Positions 49,708 through 51,310 of a DNA stretch of 64,000 nt are shown piece after piece (positions within the stretch are counted from its first letter, which is position 1; each line of letters opens with the position of its first letter). Under the pieces are notes generated by a model, which ran no database searches, was not told the origin of the DNA, and worked only from the letters and a program-made list of their open reading frames with translations. The translations under genes and the position numbers were made by a program. Origin of the DNA: Mycoplasmopsis columboralis (GTDB lineage Bacteria; Bacillota_I; Bacilli_A; Mycoplasmatales; Metamycoplasmataceae); the NCBI RefSeq assembly GCF_900660675.1, contig NZ_LR215039.1, positions 310,001 to 374,000 on the forward strand, in the 5' to 3' direction.

Positions 49708-50205
49708 TTAATAATTATTTTGTAGTCTTTTGTAATTTGTTTGATTTTTAGTTACATATCAAGAATATAGTTCATGATATGAAAAACCTAACATTTCAAA
49801 AGTTCCAATCGCAATTTCAAAAGCTCTTGTAATGGTATCTTTAGAAGGATTTTTCATAATATCAGTTAACGAAATAAAGAGATTTTGTAACTGAACATTT
49901 AAATTGCCCGAAGTTATTCTTGGTTCTATTTCATAATGAACATTGTATCTATTTGAAAACGAAACCAGAAAGTGGATTAGATCAGCAAACTCTTCTAAAA
50001 CTTTGTTGTTATCAATATTTTTATTAGCTTTTCAATATTTAAAGGTTTGAATTTCATTAGCAAATTCAGCTGCTTCTACCACAAGAGCAATGGTTCCATT
50101 GATTATAATTTGTTCATCAGATAATTCAGGATTTGTCAAAAGAGATTTTTCCTTTATTTTAGTATCCAAATCTTTCTGCATTTCAAATATTCTTGATAAA
50201 TTCAT
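49708..50205 (-). CDS. All-alpha dUTP diphosphatase-like protein
   Basis: Probable dUTPase/MazG-fold pyrophosphatase of 165 residues, which would keep uracil out of DNA and supply dUMP. The metal-binding pattern of dimeric dUTPases is visible: VVEAAEFANEIQTFKYW (ExxE-type) followed by VLEEFADLIHFLVSFSN (ExxD-type). The C-terminus is Tyr/Asn-rich. The ATG at 50205 is chosen because a TATAAT box ends 6 nt before it. An upstream in-frame TTG (50250) lies within the promoter region and is unlikely to be used. Two TGA codons are Trp. It would act in the same pathway as the Ung encoded elsewhere in the window. Confidence 0.75.
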
Positions 50206-50217: not shown

Positions 50218-50250
50218 AACTTTTTGTCCCAAAAAATCAGAAAGAAACAA

Positions 50251-50272
50251 AAAAGACCATTGCAGATCTTTT
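50251..50272 (-). terminator. Terminator of the Asn-rich small gene
   Basis: AAAAGATC pairs with GGTCTTTT around a TGCAAT loop, with further Ts on the minus strand. It lies 2 nt after the stop of the 51-residue gene. Confidence 0.7.
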
Positions 50273-50274
50273 AA

Positions 50275-50430
50275 TTACTTTTTACCTTTATAATTAGAAT
50301 TGTTTGGATTTAACTGATTTGAATGATTATTGTTATTAGCTCTATTAGCAGAGTTGTTAGGATTATTTTGGTTTGAATAATTATTCAATTGGTTTTGTGA
50401 ATGAGTATTACCTGATACTTTGCCTGGCAT
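50275..50430 (-). CDS. Small Asn-rich protein (51 residues), unknown
   Basis: A short gene with translation MPGKVSGNTHSQ... ending SNYKGKK. About 19 of 51 residues are Asn, with Ser, Gln and a Gly/Lys C-terminus. It has no hydrophobic stretch, no signal peptide and no Cys or Trp. The case for a real gene is the ideal Shine-Dalgarno AAAGGAGGTG 4-5 nt before the ATG, plus a hairpin terminator right after the stop. It sits between the methyltransferase and dUTPase genes on the same strand. A 17-base A/T homopolymer lies about 65 nt upstream of the start. I know no homologue. It is likely disordered. Confidence 0.7.
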   Translation of the reverse strand: MPGKVSGNTHSQNQLNNYSNQNNPNNSANRANNNNHSNQLNPNNSNYKGKK

Positions 50431-50495
50431 ACACACCTCCTTTATTACAAAAAATCAAAAGATACAATGGTCCATTTAAATTTTACTGAGTGACG

Positions 50496-50512
50496 TTTTT
50501 TTTTTTTTTTTT
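50496..50512. repeat. 17-base homopolymer (T on plus, A on minus)
   Basis: It lies upstream of a TAAAAT box (50480-50485, minus strand) for the Asn-rich gene, where the -35 region would be. Such tracts change length by slippage. Confidence 0.9.
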
Positions 50513-50528: not shown

Positions 50529-50552
50529 AAAACTGCAAATAATTACAGTTTT
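50529..50552 (-). terminator. Terminator of the M42 peptidase-methyltransferase pair
   Basis: AAAACTG/CAGTTTT stem with a 10-base loop, followed by a T-rich run on the minus strand. It overlaps the methyltransferase stop codon. Confidence 0.75.
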
Positions 50553-51310
50553 CGTATTACATAATAATAGGCATTGTCCGAAAATTTCTTAGCTATTTCA
50601 CTTTCAGAAGCTATTTCATCTCGCTTGGCTGTAAAAATAGGTGAAGGAAGATTAGCTTCCTTAATTAAGGATAAAACATCATCTTTATTGTAAAAACACA
50701 AAACACCTTCTTGGTTTTTGATGCGGTAAACCACATCAGCTGGTCTTCAATTTTGAATATTGTTGATTTTTAAATATTCTTCATTTTCCATAATAAAGCG
50801 TTCTTTGTGCGGATCATTATTTACTTCATCTGCGGTAAAAATTAAAATACCTTCTTTATCAAGAGAATTGAAAGCATTTTGCAAAGCGAGAATTTTATTT
50901 TTATGACCAGGAATGCACATTAAAGAATTAAAAGTAAAAAAGACTAAATCATACTTGCCAAACTCTGACAAATTAGTTTCGGTTAAATCAGCTCAATGAA
51001 AAGAAACATTTTGTGCGTATTTTTCAAATTTCGGATTTTCTTTTAAAATATTAGCTTTATAAATGGAAGATTCGCTTATATCAAAACCTACTATTTTGGA
51101 ATATCCTTTTAGTGCAGCGTTTAAAGCAAAACGACCAGTACCACACCCTAAATCAGCTATTCTAATGTTTTTGTTTTCTCCAAAATATCTATAAATTAAT
51201 GTTTCTTCACAATTAAGCATACCTACATTAAAAACCGCTTCAGTATAATATTGAAGCGATTCTTTTGTTTCGTAACTTGAAGTATATTTTAAAGTATCTT
51301 TAATTGGCAT
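50543..51310 (-). CDS. Class I SAM-dependent methyltransferase
   Basis: Predicted cytosolic methyltransferase of 255 residues. Motif I, ADLGCGTGRFALNAALKG (about 51-68), and the acidic post-I strand VGFDISESS are textbook. A motif II-like stretch reads KYDLVFFTFNSLMCIPG and a motif III-like segment is LDKEGILIFTADE. The fold resembles small-molecule or tRNA methyltransferases, but the substrate cannot be told. The C-terminal part is a beta-rich extension. TGA (Trp) occurs twice. It overlaps the M42 peptidase stop by one base (TAATG), implying coupled translation. Confidence 0.85.

Follow-up and report, generated by a model that had tools for sequence, protein, structure and literature searches.

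A small asparagine-rich gene of Mycoplasmopsis columboralis is a member of a widespread NPNN-repeat family and carries a candidate phase-variation tract

Phase-variable genes of the vlp type are among the described systems that come closest to the gene presented here. The vlp genes (Vlp of M. hyorhinis) are switched by poly(A) tracts in their promoters, and the vmm genes (Vmm of M. mycoides) by promoter dinucleotide repeats (PMC10502178). Morons, i.e. accessory genes of phages, possess their own ribosome binding site and terminator and are inserted as extras between two genes that would otherwise be neighbours. Hydrophilins and other small stress proteins are short and strongly hydrophilic. 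Finally, a hypothetical protein encoded on an Acinetobacter plasmid (WP_004969301.1) belongs to the same family as the protein described below and is ~60% identical to one of its mollicute members.

The gene studied here lies in a stretch of 64,000 nucleotides of the M. columboralis chromosome (the window) and shares features with each of these systems. As in vlp-type genes, a long A tract is found at the promoter, and likewise most of the other such tracts of the genome are located near genes for exported and membrane proteins. In contrast to vlp-type genes, the product comprises only 51 aa without visible export signals, and no variation in tract length was seen in the single genome covered. 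Like a moron, it has its own Shine-Dalgarno sequence and terminator and is an extra between otherwise adjoining genes, positions that are also held by its phage-borne relatives; the window copy, however, is chromosomal and surrounded by housekeeping genes, with no phage nearby. The shortness and strong hydrophilicity of hydrophilins recur in the family, but the Gly content of most members is too low for this class and the family has no Pfam match. In comparison to the protein of the window, WP_004969301.1 represents another subtype (NDQR) and is plasmid-borne.

The explanation we favor, to which we assign as a whole a probability of roughly one in three, is that the gene is a horizontally acquired, self-contained and tract-switched accessory gene, whose cytoplasmic NPNN protein takes part in conflicts with mobile elements. 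According to this model, a unit consisting of promoter, Shine-Dalgarno sequence, ORF and terminator would have been inserted between a methyltransferase and a dUTPase gene. Slippage of the A17 tract at the promoter side would switch transcription from cell to cell as in vlp-type genes, and the product would be a hydrophilic and soluble protein of helix-NPNN-helix repeats, kept in the cytoplasm. Our best guess for its task is that of an accessory factor against phages or other mobile elements, which may be useful sometimes and costly otherwise. The competing explanations rank in the order general stress protectant, nuclease partner, nucleic-acid chaperone and exported peptide.

A short gene with its own signals belongs to a widespread family

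The gene is located on the minus strand at 50275..50430 (coding sequence 50430-50278, stop codon TAA at 50277-50275) and encodes 51 aa (MPGKVSGNTHSQNQLNNYSNQNNPNNSANRANNNNHSNQLNPNNSNYKGKK), 19 of which (37%) are Asn. The genome comprises 967 kb and reads TGA as Trp; the frame of the downstream dUTPase gene is open under table 4 only. The start codon ATG is preceded at a distance of 4 nt by the Shine-Dalgarno sequence AAAGGAGGT (50435..50443, minus strand), a 9-mer that occurs only twice in the 64-kb window. Across the family, matches of 6-8 nt to AAGGAGGT precede 64 of 97 ORFs. An intrinsic-terminator-like hairpin with an 8-bp stem and a 6-nt loop, followed by a U run, begins 2 nt past the stop codon (50251..50272, minus strand; -6.8 kcal/mol, z -3.33 relative to shuffles). 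A consensus terminator scan did not report this hairpin because the scan demands three G-C pairs. An Rfam search of the window region returned tRNA only. The conserved 5' hairpin that is strong upstream of the Shine-Dalgarno sequence in several mollicute members is absent at the window gene. An imperfect inverted repeat flanks the gene (50250-50276 versus 50453-50477), the terminator sequence being nearly complementary to the 5' leader. A fold of the whole cassette including this repeat was considered and dismissed, as it performed no better than shuffles (z -0.6).

The initial annotation, which was made without database searches, had listed the 51 codons, the Asn content of ~37%, the near-perfect Shine-Dalgarno sequence and the hairpin 2 nt past the stop codon, all of which were confirmed on the minus strand. 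It had also proposed high expression. This is suggested by the strength of the Shine-Dalgarno sequence, to which codon usage adds nothing: 6 of the 19 Asn codons are AAC, an ordinary choice compared to 35% AAC in the other ORFs of the window. Neither the A17 tract nor the family membership had been part of this annotation.

The gene is real and represents a widespread, unnamed family of small proteins, which is distributed across bacteria and some archaea. A profile derived from 51 other members, with the window protein excluded, scored this protein with 73.9 bits, compared to 6.5 bits for the best of 2000 shuffled versions. Therefore, composition fails to explain the match. One protein search detected a copy with 71% identity in another species of the genus, and profile searches found NPNN genes in 11 of 61 genomes of the genus and in 25 of 392 from the phylum. 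Scanning one genome per species yielded 120 loci in Clostridia, Mollicutes and their relatives, Treponema, Fibrobacterota, Helicobacter, Pseudomonadota, Bacteroidota, Chloroflexota and several archaea, including one member on an archaeal contig of 4.36 Mb. Since part of these loci stem from metagenome bins, contamination may account for individual odd phyla; one identical protein is carried by L059, L061, L065 and L067. Isolates among the carriers are Acholeplasma oculi, Helicobacter saguini, Pseudomonas, Massilia, Muribacter, Orenia and Epilithonimonas. Further members reside on Acinetobacter plasmids, on viral contigs and in a Dorea phage. Pairs of close relatives exhibit dN/dS ratios of 0.03-0.29, indicating purifying selection; most pairs involving the window gene itself are saturated at synonymous sites. 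The proposal that the ORF is a genuine small gene equipped with start and stop signals of its own, which was to be abandoned if the frame were not conserved in relatives, is thus borne out by homologs with a conserved frame under purifying selection.

Sequence searches against Pfam, NCBIfam, PHROGs and PDB matched no family model, PADLOC models gave no match to 52 members, and a literature search by sequence motif likewise found none. Given that the family crosses phyla and domains and is under purifying selection, its lack of a model in the main libraries is a gap that deserves to be closed.

The family consensus VSGxTHTQxQL[ND]HYANQxNPNNxAYxANxDNHANQLNPNNxxYxG comprises two repeats of ~18 residues, each terminated by NPNN, and conservation of Asn, Gln and Pro is position-specific. 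In the window gene, the two copies of the ~54-nt (18-codon) repeat are 74% alike (50279-50331 and 50333-50385, minus strand), and the encoded repeats, which are kept in the family, end with NNPNN and LNPNN at a spacing of 18 residues. The previous description as a low-complexity peptide is correct in so far as the protein is Asn-rich, but the Asn residues are part of a conserved two-repeat pattern, in which order matters beyond composition. The MPGKVSGN start, recommended as a search handle, proved well chosen, since the subfamily to which the window protein belongs has [KG]VSGxTH as its conserved N-terminus.

These properties bear on the alternative that survives best, i.e. a protein that protects generally against stress or desiccation: an abundant and very hydrophilic, hydrophilin-like product, which could have spread since it needs no specific partners. 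A short and hydrophilic product, a strong Shine-Dalgarno sequence and the distribution over bacteria and archaea are what such a protectant would predict. However, the position-specific conservation of Asn, Gln and Pro and the low dN/dS ratios exceed the needs of solubility. Moreover, a Gly content above 6%, as expected for hydrophilins, is reached by only 29 of 96 members, with 5.9% in the window protein. We therefore regard this explanation as unlikely.

Neighbours of family members and predicted structure

The neighbours of NPNN genes differ between genomes and many of them are housekeeping genes. A gene for an HNH nuclease is found beside the NPNN gene at seven loci, and in Clostridia and Anaeroplasmataceae it is positioned 14-26 nt upstream. 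Four genomes of the genus possess both genes, which are adjacent in three of them. The idea of an HNH nuclease as obligate partner was discarded, as only 4 of 30 loci of HNH relatives in the phylum have an NPNN gene nearby. At three loci, namely L009 (Christensenella), L107 (a mollicute) and L125 (a viral contig), the NPNN gene immediately follows the end of an RNase III-like gene, the distance being 12 nt in L107. Loci L009 and L107 are 73% alike at the DNA level over 117 nt. Nucleotidyltransferase-like genes recur among the neighbours, which also include Fic proteins and, ~300 nt upstream of one NPNN gene, a viperin-like radical SAM gene (L103:379-1167; PADLOC pVip, 1e-80). A role as RiPP precursor was considered in view of radical SAM genes near some members and rejected, as these genes are no steady partner. 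On phage contigs, the NPNN gene is located beside TerL or between the genes for tail chaperone and tape measure protein, once in antisense orientation to them. NPNN repeats are also fused into larger proteins at L024, L033, L080, L083 and L088: in L024 and L033 they are attached C-terminally to a nucleotidyltransferase-like protein, and in the other fusions they lie within proteins of Pseudomonas and Azonexus or form the N-terminal part of a protein of Orenia.

If these neighbours are meaningful, they may place the function in defence or in the biology of mobile elements. The NPNN gene would then be accessory cargo, perhaps engaged in mobile-element conflict. We keep this latter role tentative because the copy in the window stands alone.

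The same neighbours could be read differently, namely as nucleases that are bound or tempered by the peptide in the style of an antitoxin or immunity protein, the window copy being a solitary representative. The location of NPNN genes directly downstream of HNH (14-26 nt) and RNase III-like genes at several loci, and the fusions to the nucleotidyltransferase-like C-terminus in L024 and L033, are in agreement with such an accessory function. Nevertheless, such a partner is missing from the vicinity of most members, a same-strand gene of any kind being present within 80 nt upstream in only 27 of 95 cases, and the window copy has none. Hence, a nuclease accessory appears distinctly unlikely.

AlphaFold modelling with 52 sequences predicted one helix on each side of the first NPNN (12-21 and 27-40), this motif serving as the connection. 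This helix-NPNN-helix shape is to be taken as a lead and not as a structure, because pLDDT reached 80.5 in the best model and 58-67 in the remaining four. Foldseek searches against PDB and BFVD revealed no solved or viral fold resembling the prediction. Both the model and residue counts speak to the earlier suggestion of a DNA/RNA chaperone or phase-separating peptide. The richness in Asn and the net charge of +5 would suit this idea as far as the window protein is concerned. Across the family, however, net charge is not conserved and ranges from -12 to +10, so charge-driven binding of nucleic acids is unlikely as a shared function. In addition, two helices are modelled rather than full disorder. 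The chaperone proposal is thus not supported, and we consider this group of explanations improbable.

The genomic site and the A17 tract

The favored scenario of an acquired and switched accessory gene relies on the site and on the promoter region. In the window, the NPNN gene is preceded by a SAM methyltransferase gene (50543..51310, minus strand; Pfam) and followed by a dUTPase_2 gene (49708..50205, minus strand; Pfam 1.1e-41), the gap of ~340 nt between both genes containing the NPNN unit. The dUTPase gene is present in all 61 genomes of the genus. In L128 and L129, which are the two closest relatives according to dUTPase (73-76% identical), the methyltransferase gene is directly followed by the dUTPase gene with ~50 nt in between and no NPNN gene. 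So the unit was either gained in the window lineage or lost in both relatives, and the patchy distribution of the family favors gain over a double loss. Adjacency to dUTPase, previously considered as a trait by which further members might be recognized, turned out to be local to the genome of the window: it is absent from L128 and L129, and the other members stand beside many different genes.

In a phylogenetic tree, the window protein is closest to L107 from a mollicute of a sister genus (78%), followed by members from Clostridia and Anaeroplasmataceae. Most other members from the genus represent a different subtype (NDQRSN...), and the plasmid copies from Acinetobacter cluster with it. Mollicute members are placed in more than one spot of the tree; a single origin is not rejected (AU p = 0.155) by an alignment of only 58 columns. 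Judged from these comparisons, the gene was probably acquired as a ready-made unit.

A poly(A) tract, A17, is located at 50496..50512 (minus strand), with 65 nt separating its end from the start codon. The tract is followed after 10 nt by a candidate -10 box, TAAAAT (50480..50485, minus strand), which was picked by eye and not reported by a sigma-70 consensus scan. The tract is the sole homopolymer of at least 9 nt in the 64-kb window and one of 12 A/T tracts of 16-22 nt genome-wide. Most of the other 11 tracts lie near genes whose predicted products start with a signal-like or membrane segment. The tract at L180 shares the flanks CTCTCT-A17-CG with the tract of the window and lies ahead of TATAAT and a gene for a membrane protein. 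Positions in the genomic list (G000:C1) include 390066 and 390645 (L174), 873124 (L177), 882707 (L178) and 939577 (L180). The 12 tracts provide a candidate list of phase-variable genes in this genome.

Long tracts recur upstream of related NPNN genes. Five of 15 mollicute members, including that of the window, carry a homopolymer of at least 14 nt in the 200 nt preceding the gene, and (TA)10 is found near the start in a further member; the tracts in the related members are A14, A14, T15, T16 and (TA)10. In L106 and L108 the tract is placed between CTTTG and GTAAAAT/GTATAAT, a layout that is also found at two membrane-protein genes in the genome of the window. The share of 5 in 15 has a chance of ~1e-8 at the measured genome rate, and of ~6e-4 if 5% of upstream regions had such a tract. 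Taken together, the rarity of the tract, its recurrence in mollicute members and the precedent of vlp and Vmm suggest that the NPNN gene of the window is likely phase-variable, even though a tract is carried by only 6 of 16 mollicute members, which counts against a switch. The promoter tracts make it testable in a minimal organism why a small non-surface protein should be switched on and off.

Promoter tracts of this class mostly serve surface proteins, and hence the product may alternatively be an exported or antigenic peptide. The location of most other long A tracts of the genome near genes for exported or membrane proteins is compatible with this possibility. However, no signal peptide, lipobox or membrane segment is visible in the window protein, and relatives occur in archaea, Clostridia and phages, leaving little likelihood for export and making a cytoplasmic location of the protein plausible. 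That the ORF is no protein gene, but a leader peptide, a chance ORF or an RNA element, as its very short length, biased composition and possible dUTPase leader position might suggest, is hardly credible in view of the low dN/dS ratios in relatives, the profile score far above shuffles, the terminator of its own and the empty site in relatives.

A structured leader RNA in Clostridia

In Clostridia, at least 15 loci have a structured RNA of ~270 nt with a terminator at its end, which precedes the NPNN gene immediately or at a short distance, the terminator being placed just before the NPNN Shine-Dalgarno sequence. The best 11 loci are L017, L018, L027, L030, L034, L045, L054, L071, L074, L075 and L081 (~300 nt upstream), and weaker cases are L013, L023, L037, L059, L073, L036 and L121. 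Within the best 11 loci, 18 of 50 predicted base pairs exhibit two-sided compensatory changes. An Rfam search with this RNA gave no match. The leader RNA offers a second entry point to the function of the NPNN family. It would also fit a broader and more doubtful version of the conflict model, in which NPNN genes are a mobile class of small accessory genes of bacteria, archaea and phages, phase-variable and cytoplasmic in mycoplasmas and controlled by leader RNA in Clostridia.

Two further small ORFs were observed next to NPNN genes. A second type of small protein (...SDNMAMDSDGDLLMRMGDNMAMDMDTGE...) adjoins the NPNN gene in L030, L074, L081 and L045 (downstream), in L020 (upstream) and in the phages L169 and L188. 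In the Acinetobacter plasmid copies L007 and L008, a tiny ORF, MSTAGWPSTTGNPSGGGRDNNPPRK, is located ~15 nt downstream of the NPNN gene. The core pattern of the Clostridial leader RNA matches four viral contigs, all four of which carry an NPNN gene.
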